This document shows positions 1,634-61,681 of a DNA stretch of 64,000 nt, piece after piece. This DNA comes from Alloalcanivorax mobilis. Lineage in GTDB: Bacteria > Pseudomonadota > Gammaproteobacteria > Pseudomonadales > Alcanivoracaceae. Numbering within the stretch: position 1 is the first letter of the stretch; every line of letters starts with the position of its first letter. The DNA is taken from the NCBI RefSeq assembly GCF_002864685.1, contig NZ_NMQZ01000033.1, forward strand, positions 1 to 64,000. The letters run 5' to 3'. Below the pieces are notes generated by a model. The model searched no databases. It worked only from the letters and a program-made list of their open reading frames with translations, and was not told the DNA's origin. A program made the translations under genes and the position numbers.

Positions 1634-1710
1634 CAAGCTCCAGGCCTCAAGCTACAAGCGGCGGCTCCAGGCGGGAGCTTGTAGTTTGAAGCTTGTGGCT
1701 TGAGCCTTGA
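1634..1710. repeat. Heptamer inverted-arm element upstream of secA (CAAGCTA / AGCTTGT type)
   Basis: The left arm is four 7-bp units (CAAGCTC, CAGGCCT, CAAGCTA, CAAGCGG; 1634-1661). A 14-bp core follows, then a right arm of five in-phase units (AGCTTGT, AGTTTGA, AGCTTGT, GGCTTGA, GCCTTGA; 1676-1710). The arms are inverted relative to each other and could fold into a hairpin. It fills most of the gap between the M23 peptidase stop and the secA start. Confidence 0.75.
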
Positions 1711-1799
1711 ATAGTCACGCCCCGCACCTTATCTCCCTGGTCTATTGTGTTTAGAATGATCCCCTTTCGCCCCACCCACTGAGAATAAACGGACGTTTC

Positions 1800-4529
1800 A
1801 TGCTGGCTACCATCGTCAAGAAAGTCTTCGGCACAAAAAATGACCGCGAACTCAAGCGGATATCGCGCCTGGTCTCCTCCGTGAACGCGTTGGGCGATGA
1901 GATCGCCCAGCTCGACGACGAGGCGCTGAAAAACAAAACCGCCGAACTGAAAGCCGCTTTTGCCGAGGGCAAGACGCTGGATGAGCTGCTGCCGAGCGCT
2001 TTCGCGGTGGCCCGCGAAGCCGCCACCCGGGTGATGGGCATGCGCCATTTCGATGTGCAGATCGTGGGCGGCATCGCTTTGCACGAGGGGCGCATCGCCG
2101 AAATGCGCACCGGCGAGGGCAAGACCCTCACCGCGACCCTGCCGGTGTATCTCAATGCGCTGTCCGGCAAGGGCGTGCATGTGGTGACGGTGAACGATTA
2201 TCTGGCCGAGCGGGACGCCAACTGGATGCGTCCTTTGTATGAGTTCCTGGGGTTGAGCGTGGGCGTGATTCTTTCCCAGCAGCCACAGGCGCAAAAACGC
2301 GAAGCCTACGGCTCGGACATCACCTACGGCACCAACAATGAATTCGGCTTCGATTACCTGCGCGACAACATGGCGTTTCGCCTGGAAGACCGGGTGCAGC
2401 GCCCGCTCAACTACGCGGTGGTCGACGAGGTGGATTCCATTCTTATCGATGAAGCCCGCACCCCGCTGATCATTTCCGGCCCGGCGGCGGATTCCTCCGA
2501 GCTGTATAAGCAGATCAACCTGTTGATCCCGCAGCTTAAGCCGCAGGTCGAGGAAGAGGGCGAGGGCGACTACTTCGTGGATGAGAAGCAGCGCCAGGTG
2601 GAACTCACCGAGCAGGGCCATCAACTGATCGAATCGCTGCTGGTGGAGAACAACCTGCTGGAAGCCGGCGAAAGCCTGTACGCCGCCCACAACCTGAACC
2701 TGCTGCACCATGTGCACGCGGGGCTGAAAGCCTACGTGCTGTTCCACAAAGATCGTGAATACGTGGTGCAGAACGACCAGATCGTGATCGTCGATGAGCA
2801 CACTGGCCGCACCATGCCGGGCCGCCGCTGGTCCGAAGGCATTCACCAGGCGGTGGAAGCGAAAGAGGGGGTGCGCATTCAGCAGGAGAACCAGACCCTG
2901 GCCTCCACCACCTTCCAGAACTACTTCCGGCTGTACGACAAGCTCGCGGGGATGACCGGCACCGCCGACACCGAGGCGATGGAATTCCGGCAGATCTATG
3001 GCATGGATGTGGTGGTGATTCCCACCAACCGGCCGATGGTGCGTAAGGATGCCAACGATCTGGTCTATCTGACCCTGGAAGAAAAATTCGACGCCATCGT
3101 CGAGGAAGTGCGCGCCTGCGTGGAGAAAGGCGCGCCGGTGCTGGTGGGTACCGCCACCATCGAAGCCTCCGAATACATTGACCAGCGGCTCACCAAGGCC
3201 AAGATCAAGCACCAGGTGCTCAACGCCAAGCAGCACCAGCGCGAGGCGCAGGTGATCGCACAGGCCGGGCGCCCGGGCACGGTGACCATCGCCACCAATA
3301 TGGCGGGTCGCGGCACCGACATCATGCTGGGCGGTAACCCGGAAGAAGAAATCAAGCACATGGACGAGCCCTCCGAGGAACTCGCCGAGAAGATCCGCGC
3401 CGAATGGCAGGACAACCACGAGAAAGTGCTGGCCGCGGGCGGCCTGCACATTATCGGCACCGAACGCCACGAATCGCGCCGCATCGATAACCAGCTGCGT
3501 GGCCGGGCCGGCCGCCAGGGTGACCCGGGCTACACGCGCTTCTTCCTGTCCATGGAAGACGATCTGATGCGCATCTTCGCCTCCGACCGGGTGCGTAACA
3601 TGATGCGCTCGCTGGGCCTGAAAGACGGCGAAGCGATTGAACACCGCTGGGTCTCCCGCGCCATCGAGAACGCCCAGCGCAAAGTCGAGGCGCGCAACTT
3701 CGACATTCGTAAAAACCTGCTCGAATACGACAATGTGTCCAACGATCAGCGCCGTGTTGTCTACAGTCAGCGCGAGCAGATTCTCGAATCCGAGTCTTTG
3801 CAGGCCTCCATCGAGAGCATCCGCAAGGATGTGCTGCCGGAGGTGGTGCACAGCTATATGCCGGTGGGCTCGGTGGAAGATCAGTGGGACGTGGAAGGCC
3901 TGGAAAAGATGCTCGAGGCCGAGTTCAGCTGCGCGGTGCCGGTGGGCCAGTGGCTGGAAGAAGACAAGGGCATGCACATCGAGGGTGTGGTCGAGCGGGT
4001 CGTCGAGCACCTGGAAGCCGATTACGTGGCCAAGGAAGAGCAGATTGGCACCGACACCCTGCGCCAGATCGAGAAGCATCTGATGCTGCAGATTCTCGAT
4101 CGCCATTGGAAAGAGCACCTGGCCAGCATGGATCATCTGCGCCAGGGCATTCACCTGCGCGGCTACGCTCAGAAAAACCCCAAGCAGGAATACAAGAAAG
4201 AAGCGTTCGAGCTGTTCCAGACCATGCTCAACCAGATTCAGCATGAACTGATCCGCGTGTTGCACAGTTTCGAAGTGCGCCGTGACGACGAAGTCGAACG
4301 CCTCGAAGCGCAGCGCCAGGAAGAAGCCCGCATTCAGTCCGAGAGAATGAAGGCCGAGCAAGAGCAAATCGCCGCGCCCACCGCGGACGGCGAAGGCATT
4401 CAGACCCAAGGGCCGCCGGAAGTGCCGCGCACGGTGGTGCGCGAGGGCCGCAAAGTGGGCCGCAATGAGCCCTGCCCGTGTGGTTCGGGCAAGAAATACA
4501 AGCAGTGCCACGGCCGCTTGGAATCTTGA
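1800..4529 (+). CDS. secA: Protein translocase ATPase SecA
   Basis: The product is 909 residues, the usual SecA length. It drives preproteins through SecYEG by ATP hydrolysis at the inner membrane. Visible features are the Walker A motif MRTGEGKT (about 102-109), the DEVD motif ([15 protein letters not shown]), the second nucleotide-binding-fold sequence [17 protein letters not shown], the [24 protein letters not shown] block, and the C-terminal zinc/SecB-binding tail with C892, C894, C903 and H904. The gene ends at LES, followed by argJ after 145 bp. The start matches the conserved SecA beginning [16 protein letters not shown]. No SecM-like leader is seen upstream, only a heptamer repeat element. 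Confidence 0.98.
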
Positions 4530-4674
4530 TTCTCCACGGCAAACCCGGTTAAAACCTCTGTTGTGGGCGGGCGGCGATTCGCCGTGCCGCCCACACCCGC
4601 CGCCCACGAGAGTGGCACCCGTGCCAAACGCAGACGCGGTGAGCACCGCGCTTTCAATTGAAGAAGGGCCGATC

Positions 4675-5880: not shown

Positions 5881-5886
5881 GGCGCT

Positions 5887-6063
5887 GGACGCCGGACGCC
5901 GGACGCCGGACGCTAGACGCTTAAACCCGTGGTCCGAGGGGCTTGCGGGTTTGCAGAAAGGCATATGCGTATTGGCAAAACCGCGGGTACGAACACAAGA
6001 GTATCAGCCACCCCGGGTTTTGGTTTTAAGCGTCCGGCGTCTAGCGTCCGGCGTCCAGCGTCC
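5887..6063. repeat. Heptamer inverted-arm element (GGACGCC / AGCGTCC type) between argJ and mutT
   Basis: The left arm holds five 7-bp units at 5887-5921 (GGACGCC three times, GGACGCT, AGACGCT). The right arm holds five units at 6029-6063 (AGCGTCC, GGCGTCT, AGCGTCC, GGCGTCC, AGCGTCC), inverted relative to the left. The roughly 107-bp core begins TTAAACCCGTGG. The right arm ends 6 bp before the AAGGAG ribosome binding site of the Nudix-ThiE gene. Confidence 0.85.
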
Positions 6064-7843: not shown

Positions 7844-7916
7844 AGGGGGGCTCCAAGAATTCGGTCAGCCGCGAAGGTACCGGCGTGGAAAGGAAAAATC
7901 CAGGGGGAGTTGCTGG

Positions 7917-8046
7917 CTTGAAGCTGCAAGCTTCAAGCTTCAAGCCGCAAAAACACCTCCAGATAGGCTTCAAGCCGCAAGCCGCAAGCTACAAAAAGAC
8001 TTCCAGAAAGGCTTGACAGGCTTTGCGGGGCCACGATCCTTTTCTG
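7917..8046. repeat. Left arms and core of the pilD-coaE heptamer element
   Basis: Two short heptad runs (CTTGAAG, CTGCAAG, CTTCAAG, CTTCAAG at 7917-7944; CTTCAAG, CCGCAAG, CCGCAAG at about 7968-7988) are each followed by a similar spacer beginning CAAAAA and containing TCCAGA. The second is followed by AAAGGCTTGACAGG and CGGGGCC before the big array starts. The same core is recognisable at 26882-26935, upstream of ampD, so this is a shared element rather than chance sequence. Confidence 0.8.
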
Positions 8047-8606
8047 GCTTGCAGCTTGCAGCTTGCAGCTTGCAGCTTGCAGCTTGCAGCTTGCAGCTTG
8101 CAGCTTGCAGCTTGCAGCTTGCAGCTTGCAGCTTGCAGCTTGCAGCTTGCAGCTTGCAGCTTGCAGCTTGCAGCTTGCAGCTTGCAGCTTGCAGCTTGCA
8201 GCTTGCAGCTTGCAGCTTGCAGCTTGCAGCTTGCAGCTTGCAGCTTGCAGCTTGCAGCTTGCAGCTTGCAGCTTGCAGCTTGCAGCTTGCAGCTTGCAGC
8301 TTGCAGCTTGCAGCTTGCAGCTTGCAGCTTGCAGCTTGCAGCTTGCAGCTTGCAGCTTGCAGCTTGCAGCTTGCAGCTTGCAGCTTGCAGCTTGCAGCTT
8401 GCAGCTTGCAGCTTGCAGCTTGCAGCTTGCAGCTTGCAGCTTGCAGCTTGCAGCTTGCAGCTTGCAGCTTGCAGCTTGCAGCTTGCAGCTTGCAGCTTGC
8501 AGCTTGCAGCTTGCAGCTTGCAGCTTGCAGCTTGCAGCTTGCAGCTTGCAGCTTGCAGCTTGCAGCTTGCAGCTTGCAGGTTGCAGCTTGCAGCTTGCAG
8601 CTTGCA
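8047..8606. repeat. 80-copy tandem array of the heptamer GCTTGCA
   Basis: 560 bp consist of 80 in-phase copies of GCTTGCA. The only deviation I see is copy 77 (8579-8585), which reads GGTTGCA. The array ends 2 bp before the pilD stop codon (TAG at 8609-8611 on the minus strand). The unit contains no stop codon in any frame, so long meaningless open frames run through it on both strands. It is the hugely expanded right arm of the element starting at 7917. Confidence 0.97.
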
Positions 8607-8608: not shown

Positions 8609-9484
8609 CTAGCTGAGGTTAAACAACCCCAGATACCCGCTGACAATCGGCTCGCCCCAGAGCAGGGCGATCCAGCCGGCGATGGCCAGGTAGGGGCCGA
8701 AGGGGATGCCCTGGCCCCGTTTGACGCGGCCGCCGGCCATCATCGCCAGCGCAAACACCAGGCCCACCACCGACGACAGCAGAATCACCAGGGGCAGGTA
8801 TTGCCAGCCCAGCCAGGCGCCCAGCGCGGCGAGCAATTTGAAATCGCCGTAGCCCATGCCCTCCTTGCCGGTGACCAGCTTGAACACCCAGTAGAGACTC
8901 CACAGAGCCAGGTAGCCGGCCATGGCGCCGGCCACCGCCTCCGGCAGAGGCACTGGTGACAAGTCCAGCAGGGCGGCCAGCAGGCCGGCCCACAGCAACG
9001 GGTAGGTGAGGGCGTCGGGCAGCAGGGTGGTGTCCAGGTCGATCACCGCCAACGCCAGCAGGGTAAAGCTGGCGAACAGGGTGAACGGCAACCACGGGCC
9101 GTAGCCGAAGCGCCAGGCGCACAGTGCCGCCACCAGCGCGGCCAGCAGCTCGATGATCGGATAGCGTTTGCTGATCGGCGCCTGGCAGGCGCTGCAGCGT
9201 CCGCGCAGCGCCAGCCAACTGAGCACTGGAATGTTTTCGTGCCAGGCAATGCCGTGATCGCAGTGCGGGCAGCGTGAGCGTGGCACCAGCAGATTGAACA
9301 GCGGCTCGTTGTGTTCGGGCTGGCCGAGCAATTCGCGGGCTTCGCGGCGCCAGCCGCGCTCCATCATCAGCGGCAGGCGGTGAATCACCACGTTCAAGAA
9401 GCTGCCCACCAGCAGACCCAGCACCGCGCAGACGATGATCAAGGCGAGCGGGCTCGCCGCCAGCCAATCCAGTCGCAGCATCAT
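8609..9484 (-). CDS. pilD: Type IV prepilin peptidase / N-methyltransferase PilD
   Basis: PilD cleaves the leader of prepilins and N-methylates the new N-terminal phenylalanine in the inner membrane. The 291-residue protein has the cytoplasmic zinc-type motif C72-x2-C75 ... C97-x2-C100 and the two aspartates of this protease family: D149 in VIDLD and D214 in GYGDFK. Several membrane segments follow. Its ATG overlaps the pilC stop by one base (TGATG), so it is coupled to pilBC. Downstream, the 80-copy heptamer array begins right after the stop codon. Its likely substrates are PilA and any type II secretion pseudopilins elsewhere. Confidence 0.96.
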   Translation of the reverse strand: MMLRLDWLAASPLALIIVCAVLGLLVGSFLNVVIHRLPLMMERGWRREARELLGQPEHNEPLFNLLVPRSRCPHCDHGIAWHENIPVLSWLALRGRCSACQAPISKRYPIIELLAALVAALCAWRFGYGPWLPFTLFASFTLLALAVIDLDTTLLPDALTYPLLWAGLLAALLDLSPVPLPEAVAGAMAGYLALWSLYWVFKLVTGKEGMGYGDFKLLAALGAWLGWQYLPLVILLSSVVGLVFALAMMAGGRVKRGQGIPFGPYLAIAGWIALLWGEPIVSGYLGLFNLS

Positions 9485-10707
9485 CAGACCACGTTGCCGA
9501 GTTGGAAAATGGGCAGATACATGGCGATGATCAAGCCGCCGATCAGCACCCCCAGCACCGCCATGATCAGCGGTTCGAGCATGCTGGTGAGGCCGTCCAC
9601 CAGGTTGTCCACTTCGTCTTCATAATAGGTGGCGACCTTGGCGAGCATGGCGTCCAGGGAGCCGGATTCCTCGCCGATGGCGGTCATCTGCAGGGCCATG
9701 GGCGGAAACACACCGGTGGAACGCATGGCGAACTGCAATTGCTGGCCGGTGGAGACGTCGTCCTTCACCTGCAGCACCGCCTTGCGGTAGACCACATTGC
9801 CGGTAGCGCCGGCGCAGGCGTCCAGGGCGTCAATCAGCGGCACACCGGCGGCGAAGGTGGTGGAGAGCGTGCGCGAGAAACGCGCCACCGTGGCTTTATG
9901 GGCGATCTGGCCGACAATCGGCAGGCGCAAGGTCAGCCGGTCGACGGCGTCGGCGAACGCCCGGGATCGCTTCTTGCCCTCGATAAAGCCGTAAATCAGG
10001 CCGGCGACGACCAGCAGGATGATCAAAAAATTATTCTGCAGGCCCTCGGAAATGCTGATCACGAAGCGGGTAAAGGCGGGCAACTCGGCACCAAACCCCT
10101 CGAACAGCTCCTGGAACACCGGCACCACCTTGAGCAGCAGAATAGCGGTGACGATCACCGCCACCGCGACCACCGCAATGGGGTATTTCACCGCTTTTTT
10201 GACCTTCGACTTCAACGCTTCGCTTTTTTCTTTGTACAGCGCCACCCGGTCGAGCATGGTTTCCAGGGCCCCGGAGGCTTCGCCGGATTCCACCAGGCTG
10301 CAGTACAGATCGTCGAACAGGGTGGGGTGCTGCCGCAGTGCGCCGGCGAAATTGTTGCCGCCTTCCACGTCCGCTTTGATCTTCAGAATCACCGCTTTCA
10401 TGGAGGGATTCTCCAGCCCGTCGGCGACGATTTCGAACGACTGCACCAGCGGTACGCCGGCTTTCATCATGGTCGCCATCTGCCGGGTAAAAATGGCGAT
10501 GTCCATGGACTTGATCTTTTTCTTCCCACCGAAGGCACTCTGGCGTTTCTTCACCACCTTGCGGGCCTGAATGCCCTGGCGGCGCAACTCGGCACGCACC
10601 AGCGCCGGGCCCTTGCCGTTGACCTCGCCCTTGACCCGCGCCCCTTTGCGGTCGGTGCCTTCGTAAATAAAGGTGGCGGTCTTCTGTTGTGCCGCTGCTT
10701 TTGCCAT
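9484..10707 (-). CDS. pilC: Type IV pilus inner-membrane platform protein PilC
   Basis: PilC is the polytopic inner-membrane protein on which the PilB/PilT motors act. The 407-residue product has two GspF domains (about 70-195 and 270-395), with the family sequences FTRQMATMMKAGVPLVQSFE and ARFSRTLSTTFAAGVPLIDA and about three membrane segments. I chose ATG 10707 (MAKAAAQQ), preceded by GGGGA, over a TTG at 10743 that would overlap the pilB stop. It lies 32 bp after pilB and overlaps pilD by one base, which indicates an operon. Confidence 0.96.
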   Translation of the reverse strand: MAKAAAQQKTATFIYEGTDRKGARVKGEVNGKGPALVRAELRRQGIQARKVVKKRQSAFGGKKKIKSMDIAIFTRQMATMMKAGVPLVQSFEIVADGLENPSMKAVILKIKADVEGGNNFAGALRQHPTLFDDLYCSLVESGEASGALETMLDRVALYKEKSEALKSKVKKAVKYPIAVVAVAVIVTAILLLKVVPVFQELFEGFGAELPAFTRFVISISEGLQNNFLIILLVVAGLIYGFIEGKKRSRAFADAVDRLTLRLPIVGQIAHKATVARFSRTLSTTFAAGVPLIDALDACAGATGNVVYRKAVLQVKDDVSTGQQLQFAMRSTGVFPPMALQMTAIGEESGSLDAMLAKVATYYEDEVDNLVDGLTSMLEPLIMAVLGVLIGGLIIAMYLPIFQLGNVV

Positions 10708-10739
10708 ACCCTGATTCCCCGCTAAGCCGACCGAGCGCG

Positions 10740-12452
10740 TCAATGACCGCTGGTGACCCGGCTCACCTCTTCAAGACTGGTTACCCCCTGCATCACCTTA
10801 TTCAAGCCGGAGCGGTACAGATCATTGAACCCCTCCTTGCGGCACTGATCGGCGATCTCGATGGAGTTGCCTTCCTCCATGATGATGCGGCCAATGCCGT
10901 CGGTGATGCGCACGACTTCGTAAACCCCCAGGCGGCCCTTATAGCCGGCCTTGCATTTTTCGCAGCCGGCCGGGCCGTACACAGTAAAGCCGCTCTGCAG
11001 ATCGCTGTCCGTGAAACCCATCTCACGCAAGGACTGATCGGGAATCTCCACCGGCTCCTTGCAGTGATCGCACAGCCGCCGCGCCAGCCGCTGGGCGATG
11101 ATCAGAATCACCGAGGTGGCGATGTTGAATGAAGGCACGCCCATATTGCGCAGCCGGGTCAGCGTTTCCGGCGCGCTGTTGGTGTGCAGGGTGGAGAGCA
11201 CCAGATGGCCGGTCTGCGCCGCTTTCACCGCGATTTCAGCGGTCTCCAGATCGCGGATTTCGCCGACCAGAATCACGTCCGGATCCTGGCGCAAGAAGGC
11301 GCGCAGCGCGGACGAGAAATCCAGGCCCTGCTTGGGATTCACGTTGACCTGGTTGATGCCGTCCAGATTGATTTCCACCGGATCTTCCGCGGTGGAAATG
11401 TTGCGCTCCGGCGTATTGAGAATGTTGACGCCGGTGTACAGCGACACGGTCTTGCCCGAACCGGTGGGCCCGGTGACCAGAATCATGCCCTGGGGCTTAT
11501 GCAGCGCGTCCATGTACATCTGCTTTTGCTCGGGCTCATAGCCGAGCGCATCGATGCCCATCTTGGCGCTTTCCGCATCCAGAATCCGCAGCACGATCTT
11601 CTCGCCGAACAGGGTCGGGCAGGTGTTGACGCGGAAATCAATCGAGCGGGTCTTGGAAATTTTCAGTTTGATGCGGCCATCCTGAGGCACCCGCCGCTCG
11701 GAGATATCCAGCCGCGCCATTACTTTCAAGCGCGCCGCCAGCTTGCTGGCGGTGGTGATCGGAGGCTTGGACACGGTCTCGAGAATGCCGTCCTGGCGGA
11801 AGCGCACCCGGTAGGTCTTCTCATACGGCTCGAAATGCAAATCCGAAGCGCCGCCTTTAATGGCGTCCAGCAGCAGCTTGTTAACAAAACGCACGATCGG
11901 CGCATCGTCCGCCCCGGACGCCGCGTCGTCCTTACCGGCGTTGTCCGGCTCTTCCGCTACGTCCAGCCCGTCCAGATCGTCATCGAGATCGTCGAACGCC
12001 TTGCCTTCCTGCTCCGACTCCAGCTTATCGATCCAGCGCAGCAGCTTGTCGTCCTCGGCGATCAACGTTTCCACGTTGAGGCCGGTATTGAATCGGATCT
12101 CTTCCAGCGCGGGCAGATTGGTGGGGTCGGACACCGCCACGAACAAACGGCTGCCGCGCCGCATCAGCGGCAAAATGGAATGCTTCACGATCAGCCGGGT
12201 ATCGACCAGATCGCGGACCATCATGTCCCCGGAAAAGGCGTTCAGATCGATCAGCGGATCACCGAATTCCTCCGCCGCCGCCCGTGCCAGCGCCATCGAC
12301 GACACCTTGCCAGAGGCGGTCAGATGCCGCACCAGCGGCACCTGCTCCCGGCGCGCATCGGCGGCCGCCTGCTGGGCGATTTCCACGGTCAGATGGCCAT
12401 CATTCACCAACCGGCGGGCCAGGCCACTCAAAGACGACGACGAAGTGCTCAT
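10740..12452 (-). CDS. pilB: Type IV pilus assembly ATPase PilB
   Basis: PilB is the hexameric extension motor for pilus polymerisation. The 570-residue protein has an N-terminal MshEN-type domain (about 10-150), which in relatives binds cyclic di-GMP. The motor domain follows, with Walker A GPTGSGKT (328-335), DPDVILVGEIRD (about 390-401), and the zinc tetracysteine C461, C464, C497, C500. ATG 12452 is preferred over the TTG three codons upstream. An acidic linker (DDLDDDLDGLD) sits between the domains. First gene of the pilB-pilC-pilD operon, divergent from pilA. Confidence 0.96.
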   Translation of the reverse strand: MSTSSSSLSGLARRLVNDGHLTVEIAQQAAADARREQVPLVRHLTASGKVSSMALARAAAEEFGDPLIDLNAFSGDMMVRDLVDTRLIVKHSILPLMRRGSRLFVAVSDPTNLPALEEIRFNTGLNVETLIAEDDKLLRWIDKLESEQEGKAFDDLDDDLDGLDVAEEPDNAGKDDAASGADDAPIVRFVNKLLLDAIKGGASDLHFEPYEKTYRVRFRQDGILETVSKPPITTASKLAARLKVMARLDISERRVPQDGRIKLKISKTRSIDFRVNTCPTLFGEKIVLRILDAESAKMGIDALGYEPEQKQMYMDALHKPQGMILVTGPTGSGKTVSLYTGVNILNTPERNISTAEDPVEINLDGINQVNVNPKQGLDFSSALRAFLRQDPDVILVGEIRDLETAEIAVKAAQTGHLVLSTLHTNSAPETLTRLRNMGVPSFNIATSVILIIAQRLARRLCDHCKEPVEIPDQSLREMGFTDSDLQSGFTVYGPAGCEKCKAGYKGRLGVYEVVRITDGIGRIIMEEGNSIEIADQCRKEGFNDLYRSGLNKVMQGVTSLEEVSRVTSGH

Positions 12453-12782
12453 GGGCAACAAATCAGCAGGTTATGATTTCTATTATGAGAAGAAGGGCTT
12501 ACTTGCGAAACAGATTGGCAGCGTTGCTCCCGGCTGTAAAGTCCGCCCCGTCAACCACTTGGCGCCGCTGCTTAAATCACGCCTGAAGTGACACAACCGG
12601 GCACCCGGGCGTGACCATTTGCGTCACACGATGACAAAAAACGGCAATTTCCCAAAGAGCGGCCATCGCAAAAACGGCCGTCCGCCGGGCGTGAAAAGAT
12701 TGGCCCGATAGCTGCATAGAGGAGACAGGCGCTCGCCGGGGGTGGGCACAATAAAAAGTTTTCCAAGACGGAGAAGCTGAAC
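12453..12782. other. Divergent pilB-pilA regulatory spacer
   Basis: This 330-bp gap separates divergent pilB and pilA. Its pilA-proximal part carries a sigma-54 promoter (12700-12717). Upstream of it is GC-rich palindromic sequence (for example around 12660-12685, GGCCATCGCAAAAACGGCCG) where an activator such as PilR might bind, though no binding site could be identified by eye. Confidence 0.5.
12700..12717 (+). promoter_or_regulatory. Sigma-54 (RpoN) promoter of pilA
   Basis: The sequence TTGGCCCGATAGCTGCAT has the -24 GG (12702-12703) and -12 GC (12714-12715) separated by exactly 10 bp, matching the sigma-54 rule. It ends 65 bp upstream of the pilA ATG. Pilin genes in Pseudomonas are transcribed by RpoN with PilR, so the site fits known biology. 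Confidence 0.8.
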
Positions 12783-13268
12783 ATGAAACAAGTGCAGAAG
12801 GGTTTCACTCTTATCGAACTGATGATCGTGGTGGCGATCATCGGTATTCTGGCTGCCGTGGCTCTGCCGGCTTATCAGGATTACACCAAGCGGGCGAAGA
12901 TGAGCGAAGTGATTGGCTTTGCTGCTGCTGCTAAGACTGCGGTTACTGAAACTTTTCAATCCAGTGGGACTTTGCCCGCTGACAACGCAGCAGCGGGAAT
13001 CGATTCAACGCCAGGTAATATCGAGTCCGAATATGTCGAAAGCGTGACCATTGCTACCGGCGTAATTACAGTTGCTGTTCAAGGCACCAACGACACCGCA
13101 CTAGACGCTGCTGCAGTTGTGTTCACGCCTGTCGAGCCTGGTACTTCCACCACTATTACTACCGGTTATTCCGGCTCAATCGCTTGGCAATGTACTGTGA
13201 CTGGGACCGAAGTGGCTAAATATTTCCCGGCTAACTGCCGTGGCGGTGCAGCTGCTCCTACTCCGTAA
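12783..13268 (+). CDS. pilA: Type IVa major pilin PilA
   Basis: The 161-residue prepilin starts MKQVQKG followed by [20 protein letters not shown]. PilD would cut after G7, leaving N-methyl-Phe with Glu at mature position 5. A C-terminal disulfide loop is likely between C137 and C152, as in Pseudomonas-type pilins. The globular part is rich in Ala, Thr and Gly. A sigma-54 promoter precedes it and a strong terminator follows, so it is mainly monocistronic. It is probably surface-variable and may be the subunit of twitching, adhesion or uptake pili. Confidence 0.95.
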
Positions 13269-13290
13269 TGTGATCTGCTATTCGCTACAA

Positions 13291-13320
13291 AAAAAGGAGG
13301 CTTTCGAGCCTCCTTTTTTT
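13291..13320 (+). terminator. Rho-independent terminator after pilA
   Basis: A 12-bp stem (AAAAAGGAGGCT at 13291-13302, TTCG loop, AGCCTCCTTTTT at 13307-13318) ends in a T run. The symmetry with A and T flanks could work both ways, but the position shows it ends pilA, 12 bp before the next ATG. Confidence 0.92.
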
Positions 13321-13331
13321 TGGGGATTGAA

Positions 13332-14465
13332 ATGGGAAATGTTCAAATAATAAATCCAAATTCCGCTGTTAAAAATACTACGGGGGACGAAGGTTATCTT
13401 TGGGGGCCCTATCTGGACTTCTTTTTGCTGGGTGGTGGCTCGCTCTTTGTATTGGTTCCGGTGGTTTTTCTTTGGTCTGGGGATAGGGATATGGCAAGCC
13501 TTGGTGCGCTGTTTCTCCTTTTGGCTAATTTTGTAAACAATCCTCATTTCGCTCATTCTTATCAGATCTTTTATAAAGATTTTGGGGGGCGAGCTTTTGG
13601 TGCGCTATTTCCGGCTTCCCTTCGGGCGCGATATATTTTTTCTGCAATCCTGGTGCCTGCCATTTTGCTTTGCTTCTTTGCATATGTTTATTTTCAGAGC
13701 GATGTCTTAGCGTTGGGATATGGTGCCAACTTGATGCTGTTTCTTGTTGGTTGGCATTATGTCAAACAGGGTTATGGAATGTTGCAGGTGGATGCGGCAT
13801 TGAAGAAAAATTTTTTCAATGACAAAGAGAAAAAAATTCTGGTAGGGAATGCCTATATCGTCTGGGTGACATCTTGGGTTCTGGCTAACCATTTATTTCA
13901 TGAAAACCAAATATGGGGTATCTCCTATTATGCATTTGACATTCCTTATTGGATTCTTTGGGCCTTGGGGGCGGTTTCGTCTTTAGGCGCTATAATTGTG
14001 ACGCCTATTCTCTTTGGAAAGGTTGTGGCCCAGGAAAAAGGGGCGTCATTACTTAATGGCTCGGTTGCCTATGTGGTAAGTCTATATGTGTGGTTGCTTG
14101 TGCGGCACCCGGCGATGCTTTTGGTTATCCCAGCATTCCACTCTCTTCAGTATATGGCGGTGGTTTGGAGGTACAGGCTAAATGTCGAGAAGAAGAGAAG
14201 CGATCAATCTTTAATATTTAGTCGCTCATACAGCGTGAGAATGCGACTTTCTATGTTTTTCGCAATAGCAGTGATTTTAGGCTATCTGATGTTCTGGGGA
14301 TTGCCTTTGTTTTTTTATGAATTTTTTGACTATGATCAAAGTGTTTTTGGTTCGTCGCTCTTCCTCTACTTCTTCCTTATCTTTGTAAATGTCCATCATT
14401 ACTTTATGGACAGCGTGATATGGCGGAAGGGGAATCCAGACACAGGTAAGTATTTGTTTGGCTAG
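13332..14465 (+). CDS. AT-rich polytopic membrane protein of unknown function, downstream of pilA
   Basis: I do not recognise this 377-residue protein. It has roughly nine to ten hydrophobic segments and several histidines close to membrane segments: NNPHFAHSYQ (about 75), GWHYVKQGYG (about 142) and NVHHYFMDSVIWR near the C-terminus. Such paired His/Asp clusters recall metal- or lipid-active membrane enzymes, but this is only a resemblance. The codons are clearly A/T-rich (many AAA, TTT, ATA, TTA) compared with all neighbours, suggesting acquisition from elsewhere. ATG 13332 follows the pilA terminator directly. In other bacteria the slot behind pilA often holds pilin-modifying or chaperone genes (tfpO, tfpY, tfpZ types), so a pilin-linked role is possible. 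Confidence 0.75.
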   Translation: MGNVQIINPNSAVKNTTGDEGYLWGPYLDFFLLGGGSLFVLVPVVFLWSGDRDMASLGALFLLLANFVNNPHFAHSYQIFYKDFGGRAFGALFPASLRARYIFSAILVPAILLCFFAYVYFQSDVLALGYGANLMLFLVGWHYVKQGYGMLQVDAALKKNFFNDKEKKILVGNAYIVWVTSWVLANHLFHENQIWGISYYAFDIPYWILWALGAVSSLGAIIVTPILFGKVVAQEKGASLLNGSVAYVVSLYVWLLVRHPAMLLVIPAFHSLQYMAVVWRYRLNVEKKRSDQSLIFSRSYSVRMRLSMFFAIAVILGYLMFWGLPLFFYEFFDYDQSVFGSSLFLYFFLIFVNVHHYFMDSVIWRKGNPDTGKYLFG

Positions 14466-14515
14466 TAAGCGTTTAAATGAGATCTAACAGTGAAGGATCA
14501 TTTTCCATCACCGCC

Positions 14516-14561
14516 GACGCCCTGTTGGGCGTCCTACTTTCTTGCTTTTCCAAGAAAGTAG
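14516..14561. repeat. Two adjacent perfect hairpins
   Basis: GACGCCC / GGGCGTC (14516-14533, loop TGTT) is followed at once by CTACTTTCTTG / CAAGAAAGTAG (14534-14561, loop CTTTTC). Both stems are perfect. The second type is widespread as a dispersed repeat in proteobacteria, to my recollection. They may stop transcription from the AT-rich gene on the left. Confidence 0.75.
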
Positions 14562-14635
14562 ACACATCCCGCGCAGCGGGTGAACGCACGCAGTGCGGGC
14601 CGTAGGCCGGAGCGAAGCGGAGTCAAGAAGGACAT

Positions 14636-14874
14636 CCCGTTGTGTCGCCCTCCGGGTACCCTTCATTCTCCAAACAAGAGGCGCGGGAAATTGATGGCCG
14701 GGTCGGCGACGCGACGAGCCTGCGGCCCCGGCCCCGAGCTTGCATGCGCGGGGCGCTACGCCGGGCGAAGCATGCTTCGCTGATTCCAGCTTCGCCCTGT
14801 CGTCCGCCGCCTCAGTTGGCTGTCCCTGGCCAACTGACCCTATCAATTTCCCGCGCCTCGGCGACACAACAGGG
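14636..14874. repeat. Split inverted repeat enclosing about 150 bp
   Basis: Outer arms are 14636-14649 and 14860-14874 (one extra base on the right). Inner arms are 14679-14695 and 14842-14858, a perfect 17-bp match containing GCGCGGGAAATTGAT. The enclosed 146 bp contain further GC-rich palindromes. The build looks like a small non-autonomous element, but no target duplication was identified. Confidence 0.55.
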
Positions 14875-15177
14875 GGAATGGCTCTCCAGAGATGTACGGT
14901 AAGGCCTTGGCCATCAGAGGTGGAGATCGGACCGAGGAGCTTGCCCTAAGAACATTGATGGCTCGACGCCATCCCGCAGTCGCGGCCTGGCGGTGTTATG
15001 ACCCGTGGCGGCGACGCTGGCCAGTGAGCAGGGCAAGGACGGTCCCGGAAGGCACCGCCCTTGCCCCGCGCCCCTAATCGGCCGCCAAATCACGATCCCC
15101 AACTTCCCGCTAAACCGCGATGAATCAAGAATGGCCACGAAACGCGGCCATTTTGTTAAGCGGAGCAGAGCTCGGAC

Positions 15178-17490
15178 CTACTTACTAAGCGGAATCAGTT
15201 GCGAGCGCTGGTAACTGCCCTCTGCTGTATCGGTATATTTGATCATCAGAGTACCGGGTTCCGCTTCGGCGAAATCTTCCGGATCGGTTGATCCCTGAAT
15301 AATGATGGGACAGATGATGGCCTCGGTGGTGTTCTCCGCCTGACAAATCACCGAACTGCCAGGCAGCGAGAAGTCGGAATCCAATGTGATGGTGGCGCGA
15401 AAGGTGCTGAATGGCGCGTTACCATTGGAATCCGCGATCACTGCCCAGTAGCGATTGAAGCCCGGGACGACCTGCAACTGGCTTAGTGGGCTGATGCCGG
15501 CCGGGGTTGCGGATCCCCATTGAGAAACGCCTTGCCAGCCGATGCTATTTGGAATCGCATCAACGAAGTACGCATGTATTTGATCGGTCGAGAGCACCAT
15601 CACTTGTGAATCGCGCACGTTTGCCAGGTCATCACAGTGATTCAGGTTACGAGCTTCCGTGCTGCATCCGAGGCCACGGAAGTGGGTGCCGGCCTGATCG
15701 TATTCGCCGTTGGTGTTGTGATCCCGAAAGTCTTCGCTGTAGTCGACGCCGCTGTCGTGCAGCCCGGTTTCGTTGTCGTCCCGGAACGCCTCGGGCAGAG
15801 CCAGCCAGCTTTCATTGCTGTCGTAGATATTGTTGCCGTTAACGTCGACAAACGATTCTTCGCCTTCGGTCCATGCGCTAACGGTATTGCGCCCGTAACG
15901 ATCCGTCGCCAGGCACGGGATTCCAAAAACAAGTCCGGTCTGTTCAGCGGTAGAAGAATCACCCGTGAAGCACTCCCGAGTGGCGCGATCCGTATCGAAG
16001 TGGGCGGTTTGCACGCCCTGGCTGGTCCAGACCACGCTGCATTGGCCTTCGCTGGTCGTGCAGCTTCCATCGATGTCACCGAGCTCAGTGGTGAAATTGA
16101 TGCGTGTGCCGTCCGGCGCCCAATTGCCGAAGCGATCAGCGGCGCGCACGTTTACGTCGACCGTTACGCCCTGGTGGCTCCCCGCCCTCGGGTTAATGGT
16201 CTCCAACGCCAGCGAGAAACGGTTCTGGGTGATTGGCCCGGATTGCACGGAGACCGAGCCGGTCGCGCGGATGTCGGCATTATCAACCAGCTTGGCGATC
16301 ACAAAGGCGGACAGGGGCACGGTGCCGCTTCGCACCGTCACCTGAACCAGGCCATTGCTGTCAGTGGTGCTTTGCTCACCGGAGGTGATCGAAAAGCCAC
16401 CATTGCCGGAAGACACCTCAAAGGCGATCTCCTGCCCCGCGCTGACGGGGTCGCCGTTGCTGTCTTTAACCTGGAAGCTCAAGGTCGACGACTCCGGGAC
16501 ACCGATCTGAGACGAACCGAGTAAGCCGATGACCGGAGGCTCGGCACCTTGAAACGTCATCGAGGCAGCTGTGGATTGGATCACGGTGATGGTGTCCGAG
16601 GTGGCGGTGCTGGTCTCGCCAGCCAGGGTGACGGACGCTGTGATGACGTCGTCGGCACAGTCGTTCGCTGGCGTGTAGCTGGTTATCGCGGTGCCGCCCA
16701 CCGGAATGATTTCCGCCGGATCGAAGCTGGCTTTGCCCGCACTGGCACAGGTTGAGGAAAACGTCACCGTAGCGGTGCCGCTCCAGGGTATGTTGCCTTC
16801 GGCGTCGACGAGATTGACCAATGCCGACAGTGATGACTTGGCGTTGACGGTGGTGTCAGACAGCTCTATTTCGCCCTCCTGGAAGTCGCCCCCGGTACCG
16901 TTGCCCAACAAAACCGAAACGGCGGTATCGTCGTTGTCATCGCCGTCAGCGCCATTGCCGCTGGTCTGGAAGTTAATGTCGCTGGTTACTTCCTCGCCAT
17001 CGACCGTGGTGGTGGCGGTAATGGTGCCGGCGCCGGCATCCTCGCCCGCGTTCAGCGCAATCTCCGCGACACCGTCGGTGTTGGTCAGGGCGGTACCCGA
17101 GACCGGATCAAGTTCACCCAGAGTCGTTTTGAAGGTAACCACCATGCCGGCCAGGTTGCTCTGGTCGGCGGAGATCATCGCGCGGACCCGCGCCGACCGG
17201 TTGCCGGTAATAGGGCGATCGACGGTGCCAACAACCACGCCTTCGGCGTCGGCCAGCGTTAGTGCCATGGTCGCATTCGCGACGTTATCGTCCGATCCGT
17301 TGTCCTCGTCGCCGGTGTCGCCCCCATTGTTATTGCCCGGGTCGATTTCGGTGTCGCCATTACCGGGAATCAGGTCTTTACTGTCACTGCCGCCACAGGA
17401 AGCGATCAGCACTGAGACCAGAATAAGGGCAATAAAGCGAATCCCCAGGAAATGCGACAAGCTGGAACGGTTGAATCTTGATTGCGACAT
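15178..17490 (-). CDS. Large lipoprotein with Ig-like (Big/invasin-type) repeats
   Basis: The 770-residue protein starts with a signal peptide ending in a lipobox (LIASC), then a Gly/Asp/Asn-rich linker (about 30-75). Three or four beta-sandwich repeats of the bacterial Ig-like 1 type follow, recognisable by motifs such as VTFKTTLGELDP, GVAEIALNAGEDAG, LVQVTVRSGTVP and INFTTELGDIDG. The C-terminal part has Asp/Asn-rich loops resembling calcium sites (DVNGNNIYDSNE, DHNTNGEYDQ). It is likely an outer-membrane lipoprotein exposed at the surface or periplasm, perhaps an adhesin. ATG 17490 is chosen because GGGGAAG lies 8 bp upstream; an ATG five codons earlier lacks a site. Confidence 0.85.
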   Translation of the reverse strand: MSQSRFNRSSLSHFLGIRFIALILVSVLIASCGGSDSKDLIPGNGDTEIDPGNNNGGDTGDEDNGSDDNVANATMALTLADAEGVVVGTVDRPITGNRSARVRAMISADQSNLAGMVVTFKTTLGELDPVSGTALTNTDGVAEIALNAGEDAGAGTITATTTVDGEEVTSDINFQTSGNGADGDDNDDTAVSVLLGNGTGGDFQEGEIELSDTTVNAKSSLSALVNLVDAEGNIPWSGTATVTFSSTCASAGKASFDPAEIIPVGGTAITSYTPANDCADDVITASVTLAGETSTATSDTITVIQSTAASMTFQGAEPPVIGLLGSSQIGVPESSTLSFQVKDSNGDPVSAGQEIAFEVSSGNGGFSITSGEQSTTDSNGLVQVTVRSGTVPLSAFVIAKLVDNADIRATGSVSVQSGPITQNRFSLALETINPRAGSHQGVTVDVNVRAADRFGNWAPDGTRINFTTELGDIDGSCTTSEGQCSVVWTSQGVQTAHFDTDRATRECFTGDSSTAEQTGLVFGIPCLATDRYGRNTVSAWTEGEESFVDVNGNNIYDSNESWLALPEAFRDDNETGLHDSGVDYSEDFRDHNTNGEYDQAGTHFRGLGCSTEARNLNHCDDLANVRDSQVMVLSTDQIHAYFVDAIPNSIGWQGVSQWGSATPAGISPLSQLQVVPGFNRYWAVIADSNGNAPFSTFRATITLDSDFSLPGSSVICQAENTTEAIICPIIIQGSTDPEDFAEAEPGTLMIKYTDTAEGSYQRSQLIPLSK

Positions 17491-17875
17491 CACTGTCTTC
17501 CCCATGTGAAGCTGGTTGTCCAGGCCGAAGAGCGAAGCGCTCTCCCTGGCCGTGATCCGGTATTTTTATGCTTGCGATAAAAGGGCATAACTTACACGCA
17601 ACCACCACGACCGGTTCGAGGCGACTCAAAGCCCGACGGGTGGACAGCGTTGGATTGTCTTATGCGTTTTCAGGAGGCATGAATGGCGATGCTTCGCTCT
17701 TGTCGGCCCCCGTTGCAATGCCAGCCCCTTTAGCCCCTTTTTGGCGTTGCGTTGTGGTTATGAATGCTACCAATCAATAAAGATCGTTATCGGAATTTAC
17801 CTTTTTAAAGAGAGGGCGGCAATGGCCAGGCGTCGCGCCCATGGCTTCCCGGTAGAGACGGTTTTCCGCAGCCTG
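17491..17875. other. Spacer upstream of the Ig-repeat lipoprotein
   Basis: This stretch holds the promoter side of the lipoprotein gene and the sequence beyond the broken nuclease gene. I see no reliable gene, promoter or repeat in it. Confidence 0.4.
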
Positions 17876-45430: not shown

Positions 45431-45842
45431 TGGGATCTTGATCGCGAACCGAGCCTGAAAGGCGAGGCGGGCTTGGCAAAGCCGATTCGCGGTCAAGGAC
45501 CGCTCCCACACCAGAATCCAACTCCGGCGCAGGCCTGGCTGTTCTCTTCTAACCTGTGCCCTGTTCCGGCCCCGCTACAACGCCGCTGTGGGAGCGATCC
45601 CTGATCGCGAACCGAGCCTGAAAGGCGAGGCCAGCTTGGCAAAGGCGGTTCGCGGTCAAGGACCGCTCCCGCACGAGAATCCGACTCCGGCGCAGGCCTG
45701 GCTGTTCCCTCCTAACCTGTTCCCTGTTCCGGCCCCGCTACAACGCCGCTGTGGGAGCGATCCCTGATCGCGAACCGAGCCTGAAAGGCGAGGCCAGCGT
45801 GGCAAAGCCGATTCGCGGTCAGGGACCGCTCCCACACCAGTA
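45431..45842. repeat. Tandem 163-bp units each containing a REP palindrome
   Basis: A unit of 163 bp is repeated about 2.5 times: equivalent positions are 45439 and 45602, and 45581 and 45744. Each unit contains a REP-type palindrome (GGGAGCGATCCCTGATCGCG facing GCGGTCAAGGACCGCTCCC) and a spacer. The spacer resembles the 3' end of the lipoprotein gene that begins at 45843 (CCGGCG, CTGGCTGTTCC, CCTGTT), so the array seems to have grown by copying the gene end plus a REP. Confidence 0.82.
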
Positions 45843-46340
45843 TCAAATACCGGCGTCAGTCTGGCTGTTCCCCGCATCCTGTTTCTTGTTGCCGTCTTGG
45901 GCCGGCCGTTGCGGGCGGGGGATGACCCAGCCATCTTCGCCGTGTTCCAGGTTGAGGCGGCGTTCCTGGGTAAAGTGGTCGTCTTTGGCGAAATCGCCGA
46001 ATTGCACGCGCACCGCCGCCAACGCCATGATCATGGCGAAGCGGTCCATGGCGTCGCGGTCTTCGTCGTTTTTGATTTCCTTGGAGTAGTCGGACAGGTC
46101 CCGTTTCGCGCGCAGGGTGTAGCTCACGGCGAGGGTGTAGTGGTCGTCGTCCTGTTGCTGGCGATCGGCGATTTCCACATCGTCGGCTTCCAGCAGGGCG
46201 TCCAGGTGCGCTTCTTTGAGCTCCCGGTTCAGGGCATCGCGGATCACGTCGTTATCGGGGGCGTTGCCGCAGGCGCTGAGCAAAACCAACAGGGCAAGCG
46301 TGCAAAGGGCAATCGGCGCCCGCAAAAGAGAAGGGTTCAT
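45843..46340 (-). CDS. Putative lipoprotein of unknown function
   Basis: The 165-residue protein has a lipoprotein signal ending LLSAC (cysteine about 24), then an acidic, charged soluble part (ALNRELKEAHLDALLEADDVE, RDLSDYSKEIKNDEDRDAMD). No family is recognised. The last dozen residues (KKQDAGNSQTDAGI) are encoded by sequence that belongs to the tandem repeat next to it, so the C-terminus may vary between strains. Confidence 0.75.
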   Translation of the reverse strand: MNPSLLRAPIALCTLALLVLLSACGNAPDNDVIRDALNRELKEAHLDALLEADDVEIADRQQQDDDHYTLAVSYTLRAKRDLSDYSKEIKNDEDRDAMDRFAMIMALAAVRVQFGDFAKDDHFTQERRLNLEHGEDGWVIPRPQRPAQDGNKKQDAGNSQTDAGI

Positions 46341-48536: not shown

Positions 48537-48550
48537 ATGCCGGTCAAGCG

Positions 48551-48713
48551 CTGGACGCCAGACGCTGGACGCACGCGCTTCGCGCTACACGCTCGAACAG
48601 TGCCACCGGCCACGCCTGCGGATTCGCAAGTCCATTTTGCGCCCCGCCCACGCGGCGTTGTAGACAGGTTCTGACTTTGACGTTGATCTTTTAGCGTCCA
48701 GCGTCCAGCGTCC
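48551..48713. repeat. Heptamer inverted-arm element (CTGGACG / AGCGTCC type) between flgM and flgA
   Basis: Three units on the left (CTGGACG, CCAGACG, CTGGACG; 48551-48571) and three perfect AGCGTCC units on the right (48693-48713) face each other across a 121-bp core. It sits between the divergently oriented flgM promoter and the flgA end. Confidence 0.85.
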
Positions 48714-48740
48714 AGCGCGAAGCGTGCAAATGCTTACGCA

Positions 48741-58566: not shown

Positions 58567-59763
58567 ATGCGCATCAGCACCCTGACCATGTATGACCAGA
58601 GTGTCTCGTCCATGAACCGCCAGCAGAGCGACTTCATGCACGTCAGCCAGCAGATCGCCACGGGCCGCCGGGTGGTCAACCCGTCCGACGATCCGCAGGC
58701 CGCGTCCCGGGCGGTGCAGGTGGCGCAATCCCAGGCGGTCACTCAGCAGTACAGCGACGCGCGGGTGTCCGCCCGCAACGCCTTGTCCCAGGAAGAAAGT
58801 GTGCTGAACAGCGTCAGCGACGCCATCACCAGTGCCAAAACCCTGATGCTGCAAGCCGCCAGCGACACCCTCAGCGACGCCGACCGCGCCTCCGTGGCCA
58901 GCGAGCTGCGTGGCATCTACGAAACCGTGATCGGCCAGGCCAACGCCACCGATGGCAACGGCCGCTACCTGTTCGGTGGCTACCAGGATTCCAGCGAGCC
59001 GTTCGTGCGCGCCGCCGACGGCAGCGTCGAGTACGTTGGCGACAGCAAGGTTCGCGAGCAACGCATCGATGCCTCGCGGCTGATGCCGGTGGCCGACAAC
59101 GGCGCCGATATTTTCCAAAGCGTGCCCGGCGGCGCCGGCTATGCCGCCCAGGCGGACGGTGGCAATCAGGGCAGCGTTACCTTCAAGGGCCCGGCGGTCG
59201 CCGACGTCAATGACCCGGCCTACGGCCAGGACTTCGAAATCACCTTCGCGGTGGACGGCGAGAACGTCACCTACTCGGTCAACGGCGGCGACCCGGAAGT
59301 GTATGAAGAGGGCGCCACGGTGCGCTTTGGCGGGCTCTCCATGACGCTCACCGGCGCCCCCGCGGACGGCGACGGCATCGAGGTGGCCAAGGCCGCCAAC
59401 CTCAACACCGACCTGTTCAAGACGTTCGAAAAAGCCCTGGCCGTGCTGGAAAACCCGGCCACCACCGACAACCAGAAAGCGACCCGGCAGAACACCATCA
59501 ACGAAGCCCTGCGCGAGTTCGACAACAGCCTCGACAACGTGCTCACCACCCGCGCCTCGGTGGGCGCGCGCCTCAACGAACTGGACGTGGTCGACTCGGT
59601 CGCTGGCAACCGCCAGACCAACTACGAGCAGACCCTGTCCGATCTGGTGGATCTGGACTACTACGCCGCCATCTCCGAATACACCCTGCGTCAGGTGGGC
59701 CTGCAAGCCGCGCAGCAGGCGTTTGTTGATATCAAGGGCATGAGCCTGTTTGATCGGTTGTAG
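58567..59763 (+). CDS. flgL: Flagellar hook-filament junction protein FlgL
   Basis: The 398-residue protein has the flagellin-like N-terminus (MRISTLTMYDQSVSSMNRQQ, then GRRVVNPSDDPQAASRAVQV) and the C-terminal LSDLVDLDYYAAISEYTLRQ. It follows flgK by 45 bp and shares its promoter. A heptamer array begins 8 bp after the stop. Confidence 0.96.
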   Translation: MRISTLTMYDQSVSSMNRQQSDFMHVSQQIATGRRVVNPSDDPQAASRAVQVAQSQAVTQQYSDARVSARNALSQEESVLNSVSDAITSAKTLMLQAASDTLSDADRASVASELRGIYETVIGQANATDGNGRYLFGGYQDSSEPFVRAADGSVEYVGDSKVREQRIDASRLMPVADNGADIFQSVPGGAGYAAQADGGNQGSVTFKGPAVADVNDPAYGQDFEITFAVDGENVTYSVNGGDPEVYEEGATVRFGGLSMTLTGAPADGDGIEVAKAANLNTDLFKTFEKALAVLENPATTDNQKATRQNTINEALREFDNSLDNVLTTRASVGARLNELDVVDSVAGNRQTNYEQTLSDLVDLDYYAAISEYTLRQVGLQAAQQAFVDIKGMSLFDRL

Positions 59764-59771
59764 GGGGCGCC

Positions 59772-59806
59772 GGACGCCGGACGCCGGACGCCGGACGCCG
59801 GACGCT
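59772..59806. repeat. Heptamer arm (GGACGCC type) downstream of flgL
   Basis: Four perfect GGACGCC units and one GGACGCT (59772-59806), followed by AAGATCAAACCCGTCGCTGG, a core piece also present inverted near 40860-40880. No facing arm is seen before the DUF1090 gene. Same heptamer as the argJ-mutT element. Confidence 0.88.
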
Positions 59807-61255: not shown

Positions 61256-61257
61256 GG

Positions 61258-61527
61258 TCAGGACACCAGCAGCGGAATGTTCTGGAACAACTCGCGGGTA
61301 AAGTCGGTGATCAAGCCGAGCAGCCAGGGCCCGCTGATCACCAGCACCGCGAACACCGCGAGAATTTTGGGGATGAACGACAGCGTCATTTCATTGATCT
61401 GCGTGGCCGCCTGGAACAGGCTCACCAACAACCCCACCGCCAACGCCGTCAACAACAACGGCGCCGCCAGTAGCAGCGTCACCACCATCGCCTGATAGGC
61501 CATGCTCATTACTGTTTCTGGGGACAT
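61258..61527 (-). CDS. fliQ: Flagellar export gate protein FliQ
   Basis: The 89-residue protein has two membrane hairpin segments and the motif LVSLFQAATQINEMTLSFIP, as in FliQ. ATG 61527 fits; a frame extending to 61629 is repeat sequence. The gap to fliP contains a heptamer element, which is unusual for this tightly packed operon. Confidence 0.95.
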   Translation of the reverse strand: MSPETVMSMAYQAMVVTLLLAAPLLLTALAVGLLVSLFQAATQINEMTLSFIPKILAVFAVLVISGPWLLGLITDFTRELFQNIPLLVS

Positions 61528-61543
61528 AAAAGCCTCTTCGAGG

Positions 61544-61681
61544 AGTTGAAAGTTAAAAGTTAAAAGTTGAAAGACAAAGAGGCCGTGCTTTCCGGGGAGC
61601 CCCACGCTGTAGACGCGGGCACGACACAAGCCGCCACATTGCCCTTCATCGCGTTCAACTTTTCACTTTCAACTTTCAACT
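61544..61681. repeat. Heptamer inverted-arm element (AGTTGAA / TTCAACT type) between fliP and fliQ
   Basis: The left arm has four units (AGTTGAA, AGTTAAA, AGTTAAA, AGTTGAA; 61544-61571). The right arm has four (TTCAACT, TTTCACT, TTCAACT, TTCAACT; 61654-61681). The arms are inverted and of equal number, around an 82-bp core. It fills most of the 163-bp gap. Confidence 0.92.

Follow-up and report, generated by a model that had tools for sequence, protein, structure and literature searches.

The DNA considered here is a stretch of 64,000 nucleotides from Alloalcanivorax mobilis (contig NZ_NMQZ01000033.1, positions 1 to 64,000), hereafter the window, which corresponds to C27:1-64000 of the source genome (G000, 4.10 Mb over 92 contigs). 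Neighbouring genes identified by Pfam are an M23 peptidase gene, secA, argJ, coaE, a DUF1631 gene, an Amidase_2 gene, response-regulator and histidine-kinase genes and, further along, MFS, rhomboid and flagellin genes and fliP. The spacers beside them hold elements built from tandem seven-base units (heptads), often as two inverted arms that face each other across a centre. A sequence-only reading of the window had reported such 7-bp repeats in thirteen spacers, and Tandem Repeats Finder together with the printed sequences located them at 13/13 of these sites, the arrays at 1634 and 39917 being weak and degenerate. Across the genome the arms have a fixed polarity, centres are related at unlinked loci and elements start at, or a few bases past, a stop codon. 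We tentatively read them as composite DNA palindromes that belong to several dispersed families and reside at gene 3' ends, a reading that comes close to being probable and under which any function is a prediction only.

The elements of the window are listed below; no strand is assigned to any of them, and letters denote heptad classes.

1629-1708: class B (CAAGCNN / NNGCTTG) facing pair, between the M23 peptidase gene and secA
5883-6062: class A (GACGCYN) facing pair, beginning right after the argJ open reading frame (ORF; end 5880)
7916-7995: class B left arms, two short CAAGC arrays, beside coaE (Pfam)
8047-8606: GCTTGCA x80, the right arm facing 7967-7995; 560 bp, 99% matches
26863-26998: class B pair, 3 + 9 units, between the DUF1631 and Amidase_2 genes
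33947-34047: class B pair, at the 3' end of a response-regulator gene
34741-34814: class C (CAGTTTT / CTGAAAA) pair, between response-regulator and histidine-kinase genes
39362-39526: class E (CAGGATT / CTGTATC) pair, downstream of the MFS gene
39914-39934: class E short array, 3 units, too short for partner scoring
40935-40968: class E single array ATCCTGA, 5 units
43390-43425: class C single array CTGAAAA, 5 units, just upstream of the rhomboid gene (43432)
48548-48727: class A facing pair
59768-59805: class A single array CGCCGGA, 5 units, right after the flagellin gene (58567-59763)
61544-61681: class D (AAGTTGA / TCAACTT) facing pair; the fliP 3' end (61691) lies about 10 bp beyond it

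The 80-copy GCTTGCA array at 8047-8606, which the sequence-only reading had not mentioned, is the longest heptad array in the examined sequence. The element at 26863-26998 has about nine copies in its right arm (26936-26998), and its centre resembles that of the element at 7967-8606 (79% over 38 bp). Facing partners were sought within 300 bp at a score of at least 7, with reversed but not complemented sequence as the control, and pairs are called strict when both arms were detected independently. The pair at 39362-39526 is strict in this sense and lies under the threshold of the scored partner search, and at that threshold no facing partner lies within 300 bp of the arrays at 40935, 43390 and 59768. 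Rfam gave no match in the window at the gathering threshold.

Run scoring (score of at least 14, periods 2 to 30) over 639 kb of G000, namely C1, C2 (1-100 kb) and C12 (1-200 kb), yielded 27 arrays of period 7 versus at most 4 of any other period. A column count, which takes four units with at least four conserved columns and is looser than run scoring, gave 49 arrays at period 7 versus 8, 15 and 15 at periods 8, 10 and 11 in G000. Its values at further periods were 21 (period 6), 56 (9), 132 (12), 18 (13), 43 (14), 191 (15) and 38 (16), the higher ones at longer periods and multiples of three being due to the count itself and to coding sequence. A mononucleotide shuffle of C1 left no period-7 array by this count, and a chance origin of the arrays is excluded. 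Conserved columns are contiguous in 22 of the 32 arrays with five such columns (one third expected) and in 15 of the 44 with four (one fifth expected), and a strict 4+3 core model is only partly supported. The notion that period 7 places stop codons in all three frames was dropped, as some heptads, inspected by eye, contain no stop.

The element survey covered 1,246,352 bases of G000, window included, and found 246 period-7 arrays; element density should be taken from C1, C2 and C12, since the other contigs (C4, C7, C15, C16, C18 and C23) were picked for GCTTGCA repeats. A facing partner scoring at least 7 accompanies 159 of the 246 arrays versus 4 of 246 in the control, which bears out the earlier claim of inverted facing arms at many sites. 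The strict facing pairs number 79 (27 of class A, 22 of D, 19 of B, 4 each of E and G, and 3 of C); their left arms carry the cores ACGC, AAGT, AAGC, CAGG, GGAC or CAGT, and the right arm is the complement in 77 of them. Both exceptions to this polarity belong to class B and have a right-arm unit that contains AAGC as well as GCTT. Half-detected pairs fit the polarity of their class in 12 of 14 cases, and 74 arrays are single, 14 of them in no named class. At least six different heptad cores thus coexist in one genome.

The inner sequences also follow the classes. CGCGGGC/GCCCGCG occurs in 16 of 22 class D centres, in none of the 27 class A or 19 class B centres and in 18 of 423 background segments, and AAACCC/GGGTTT occurs in 18 of the 31 class A and G centres, in no class D (0/22) or class B (0/19) centre and in 23/423 of the background. 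Eleven of the 31 class A/G centres contain GTGTTTNCTG...CAGNAAACAC, and one centre is common to three class B elements (7967, 26863 and C23:39146). When the 60 centres of at least 25 bp were compared (19 shorter ones omitted), 31 of 1770 pairs matched, all within a class or between A and G, versus 1 of 1770 for background segments; the best match between unlinked centres is 88% over 50 bp. Class-specific related centres therefore suggest that composite elements have spread, which argues against purely local growth, although the families are diverged. Like miniature inverted-repeat transposable elements (MITEs), the elements combine terminal inverted repeats with related inner sequence at unlinked loci, the relation being weak or absent in many copies.

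A hybrid lies at C1:49763-49883 (L110), with a GACGCTG left arm, a GCGTGTT right arm, ACGC/GCGT as their only common part and an AAACCC...GGGTTT centre.

Placement was assessed against gene ends from a simple codon-usage gene caller; counts of spacer type, stop distance and spacer filling omit the 14 arrays outside named classes, and the spacer-type count finds 6 elements inside called genes and 4 that lack an assignment. Among spacers of at least 100 bp, an element is present in 33 of 63 convergent, 69 of 279 tandem and 6 of 124 divergent ones. The 79 pairs comprise 74 beside a gene end, in tandem or convergent spacers, 4 between divergent genes and 1 unassigned, and 64 of the 74 begin no more than 15 bp from the stop codon, at a median of 4 bp. 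Half or single arrays do so in 28 of 62 cases, and uniform placement of the 136 paired and unpaired elements predicts a fraction of 0.34. Repetitive extragenic palindromic (REP) sequences in the same DNA lie at a median of 129 bp from the stop, a figure that draws on only 9 loci, all tandem, of the 20 REP loci. In tandem spacers 44 of 50 elements hug the stop, 17 of these being also within 25 bp of the next start, and in 12 of 19 single-pair convergent spacers both stops lie within 20 bp of the element. The anchoring of paired elements to stop codons is a new observation, and spacers between divergent genes are avoided.

The genomes available for comparison include 12 of the same genus and 46 of the family. 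By column count, period 7 is found 34 times in loci L009-L027 (mostly Alcanivorax and Alloalcanivorax) versus 0, 6 and 2 times for periods 8, 10 and 11, and 13 times versus 13, 11 and 14 in L028-L088 (Pseudomonas, Stutzerimonas, Acinetobacter, Hahella and others). In another genus of the family (G048), 400 kb hold 87 period-7 arrays versus 3, 3 and 7; of its 19 paired elements, 16 lie within 15 bp of a stop, and three units listed for its left arms (TCGCAAC, CTCGCAG and TTGCGTG) are perhaps reversed. For 400 kb of a genome of the same genus (G005) the figures are 17 versus 1, 1 and 8, with 13 arrays at period 13 also; its five pairs all lie in convergent spacers, no more than 15 bp from the stop, and four of them use the word CAGTTGA, the fifth TAGTTGA. 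A further genome (G056, 200 kb) has 8 versus 1, 6 and 1, and no period-7 array was counted in 120 kb of G029 or 41 kb of G027, from other families of the order. These counts indicate that the trait is frequent in the family and uneven within it. The earlier idea of one design with differing heptads is supported by the dominance of period 7, the fixed arm polarity and the other heptads of the relatives.

At orthologous spacers, read by eye, different classes occupy the same place. Beside coaE, ATCCTGT arrays are present in L011-L013 and GTTAATA-like units in L020-L021, while L015, L023 and L024 have facing arms made of other words; the remaining loci have none. The spacer between the M23 peptidase gene and secA, which holds class B in the window, has class D arms in L011 and L012, a REP-like pair in L013 and a hairpin with a T run in seven loci (L015, L017 and L019-L023). 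Downstream of the response-regulator gene, class B pairs are found in the window and L130, a short remnant in L135, a REP-like hairpin in L134 and nothing in L132. Heptad-free sites in relatives are L132 and the argJ side of L011 and L013, at an identity of roughly 77-80%.

In the source genome itself, two similar gene ends (C1:241340-241480 and C1:249640-249840; L120) bear a GCTTGAA and a TCCTGAA array at the same place, and their flanks have one other long copy only.

The sequence-only reading had seen balanced copy numbers in the two arms and had proposed a mechanism acting on both, such as hairpin-templated copying, which would hold the arms equal in number and sequence. It had also staked its single-family idea on an excess of period 7 and on correlated arm numbers; the excess is there and the correlation is not. 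Unit numbers cluster at 4-5 per arm, and between the arms of the 79 strict pairs they are uncorrelated (rho 0.03). The arms are equal in 26/79 pairs (0.33), the same fraction as after within-class permutation, and differ by 2.51 units on average versus 2.46 when permuted, so that the supposed balance is no better than chance; unequal arms of 3/9, 4/80 and 11/3 units occur. The order of unit variants is not mirrored either (mean Z -0.09, standard error 0.15 against shuffled units, in the 56 of 79 pairs that allowed the test), and in G048 arm numbers are likewise uncorrelated (rho -0.07, 20 pairs). What speaks for templated copying is that both arms of a pair share a core, which follows from the pairing rule used, and that at the secA|argJ spacer of 15 Alcanivorax relatives, two copies (L209 and L210) lack one heptad in both arms; two other length changes there are one-sided, as only the right arm is a unit short in L211 and only the left arm has a surplus unit in L216. 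Uncorrelated copy numbers and unmirrored variants therefore lead to the rejection of hairpin-templated copying, which is already largely refuted and which we consider barely credible.

A more serious contender, though on balance an unlikely one, holds that RNA hairpins in the 3' untranslated region, acting as terminators or exonuclease barriers, are selected right after stop codons and that heptads lengthen their stem. Stop-codon anchoring fits this proposal, as does the secA|argJ element, which is kept in the 15 relatives with its arms on both sides of a canonical intrinsic terminator and with cores that vary between species in both arms. Folding of eight of the 15 copies gave structures of greater stability than those of shuffled sequence (z -4.2 to -10.1). 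Two registers were tried for covariation, and 0/500 and 2/500 shuffles attain the observed score; slid partners pair far less, and in each register five helix-2 pairs are changed on both sides. However, the 7 pairs changed on both sides in the first register are no excess (183/500 shuffles reach that number), and further pair types in the second are few (487/500 shuffles reach them); the covariation is moderate evidence, because related sequences can exceed such shuffles without any structure. It is possible that a terminator has co-opted the secA element. Elsewhere in G000, a strict scan found a hairpin with a T run in only 4/78 pairs, unlike intrinsic terminators, and unit variants are not matched in register. 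Selected RNA pairing would predict more G-U than A-C mismatches on the sense strand, and the counts are 61 and 72 (p=0.39); the folding energies of the two strands of 53 tandem pairs are the same (-67.7 and -67.9 kcal/mol). The absence of a wobble bias, equal strand folding and the scarcity of T-run hairpins leave no RNA-level signature and favour DNA palindromes in G000. A role of the elements as stand-ins for intrinsic terminators was also rejected, as terminator-like 3' ends are about equally common with an element (8/81 tandem, 9/68 convergent) and without one (18/245, 14/72).

Local seven-base slippage in any non-coding DNA, with gene ends as tolerated space, appears improbable. It would account for the long uniform arrays of 5, 8-9 and 80 units and for the different words at the two similar C1 gene ends, and, according to PMC4692102 and PMC4679880, a 2007 survey showed that in many bacteria heptanucleotide repeats are over-represented or outnumber every other repeat category. 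On the other hand, many unlinked loci share a small set of classes, each with its own type of centre and a fixed polarity, and the period-7 excess is missing from L028-L088. Evenly spaced cores, inverted orientation and enrichment between convergent genes could also be expected of binding-site arrays that would act on supercoiling between convergent genes through a protein such as gyrase or a nucleoid protein. Gyrase binds at some bacterial interspersed mosaic elements (BIMEs). Such arrays are nevertheless highly improbable here, given at least six cores in one genome and other cores in relatives, and the binding is purely hypothetical.

The preferred reading of dispersed composite DNA elements takes each element as a central class-specific palindrome with two inverted tandem-heptad arms, whose heptads combine a conserved core of about 4-5 bases with 2-3 variable bases. 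Centre and arms would be copied together as a unit by some activity, after which each arm would grow or shrink independently by seven-base replication slippage, which could produce the arms of 9, 11 and 80 units. The elements would persist at gene ends because the cell tolerates them or profits from them there, and they would act as palindromes in DNA, not as RNA hairpins under selection. A wider claim, which we regard as possible but doubtful, is that such multi-class heptad-armed palindromes lie genome-wide at Alcanivoracaceae gene 3' ends, where they often replace convergent spacers nearly from stop to stop and swap words in both arms at once between species, and that a DNA-level activity writes and spreads them.

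Several observations weigh against the preferred reading. Relatedness among centres is mostly weak, the strongest matches (91% over 70 bp and 97% over 32 bp) being between elements about 1 kb from each other, and in class B many centres are short and bear no relation to one another. A BLAST search with two centres in 23 genomes gave only 5 and 2 matches in G000, query included, and lacked the power to map the family. The 19 single-pair convergent spacers leave a median of 16 bp outside the element versus 92.5 bp in 64 element-free spacers; elements therefore replace spacer rather than add length, which simple insertion does not predict. The secA|argJ element surrounds a terminator in the 15 relatives and shows some paired changes, which points to a hairpin role there. 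Class and core definitions were set after inspection of the data, and gene ends come from our own codon-usage caller, with some elements overlapping called genes. Furthermore, no mobiliser was found around three Y1-type genes. A look for a linked transposase had been suggested earlier, and the genome has three Y1_Tnp matches, around each of which about 3.3 kb was examined; in none is a gene for a REP-associated tyrosine transposase (RAYT) flanked by a heptad repeat. The first (L233) has no period-7 array around it, the second (L234) is flanked by GTGGGAGCGGTCC-type REPs, and the third (L235) has one 3-unit CACTGAA array, upstream only.

Tandem seven-base intergenic units are known from cyanobacteria as short tandemly repeated repetitive (STRR) sequences, whose likeness to the present elements is by description only. 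The combination of features had seemed unrecognised in the sequence-only reading. However, according to the cited parts of Rehm et al. 2015 (PMC4692102), intergenic heptameric repeats are found in Xanthomonas (GGGAATC) and Nostoc (GGGGA(C/T)T), and two Xanthomonas species have 70 and 75 convergent facing pairs, of which 83% are common in context. The Xanthomonas repeats are tandem heptads with conserved and variable positions, mostly of four units and intergenic, near or overlapping stop codons, rare between divergent genes and forming convergent facing pairs, all as here. In contrast, that account gives Xanthomonas and Nostoc one G-rich, quadruplex-forming heptad per genome, whereas at least six classes lacking a GGG run coexist here, their cores being ACGC, AAGC, AAGT, CAGT, CAGG and GGAC rather than GGGA. 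The present elements also depart from the Xanthomonas repeats as described there (PMC4692102) in that their palindromic centres are class-specific, that they fill spacers and that one site holds different classes in different species. Judged by this likeness, the kind of element is already known from Xanthomonas, with a single word per genome, and several coexisting words appear to be what differs here.

In the Nostoc trnL (tRNA-Leu UAA) intron, the P6b stem is made of 7-nt motifs (Kaasalainen et al. 2015, PMC4476775, in the part cited); as here, motif classes (TDNGATT, NNTGAGT) swap at the same site and insertions and deletions affect both sides of the stem or one, but it is one RNA stem within an intron, whereas the present family is intergenic and spread over the genome. 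The TAACTGA repeats of marine Beggiatoaceae, as far as the cited passages describe them (MacGregor 2015, PMC4679880), are likewise abundant intergenic tandem heptads in gammaproteobacteria, with 2-6 units; they are of one heptad, mostly upstream of start codons, with 169 direct sets and one inverted repeat. That paper also carries the idea that 7 nt may be the length touching the polymerase. REPs with RAYT transposases share dispersed short palindromes, often as inverted dimers, but are tagged by GTAG or CGTC, and the text consulted from PMC3733652 holds no occurrence of 'heptamer'. In G000, CGTC and GTAG strings are present inside some heptads, and a different repeat lies on both sides of one Y1-type gene. 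Among the open-literature titles listed, none dealt with such repeats in Alcanivoracaceae, subscription papers lying outside this scope.

The over-representation of seven-base repeats in bacteria, for which the 2007 survey is reportedly due to Mrazek, has been reported without an established cause. Here, at least six words of the same length share one architecture at gene ends and do so again in another genus, which indicates that the length is constant and the sequence free. The 46 family genomes allow the birth, loss and class exchange of elements to be followed at orthologous sites, and the correlation between arms and the distance from the stop codon are direct tests of slippage, hairpin and mobility models.

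The window has further features apart from the heptad elements. Positions 45439-45872 hold a 163-bp tandem repeat (2.7 copies) containing CGGTCAAGGACCGCTCCCACA-type REPs, a type that also flanks the Y1-transposase (RAYT-like) gene in L234. The names pilD and pilC near coaE follow from gene order, and the protein encoded at 9484-10743 is presumably PilC; its six best hits, four labelled Alloalcanivorax and two from Alcanivorax metagenome-assembled genomes, share 84-86% identity with it. The stretch 12001-20000 has a lower GC content (53% and 60% in two 4-kb windows) and holds a pilin gene, a gene for an invasin/Big_1-domain protein and two ORFs lacking a Pfam match; it was possibly acquired.

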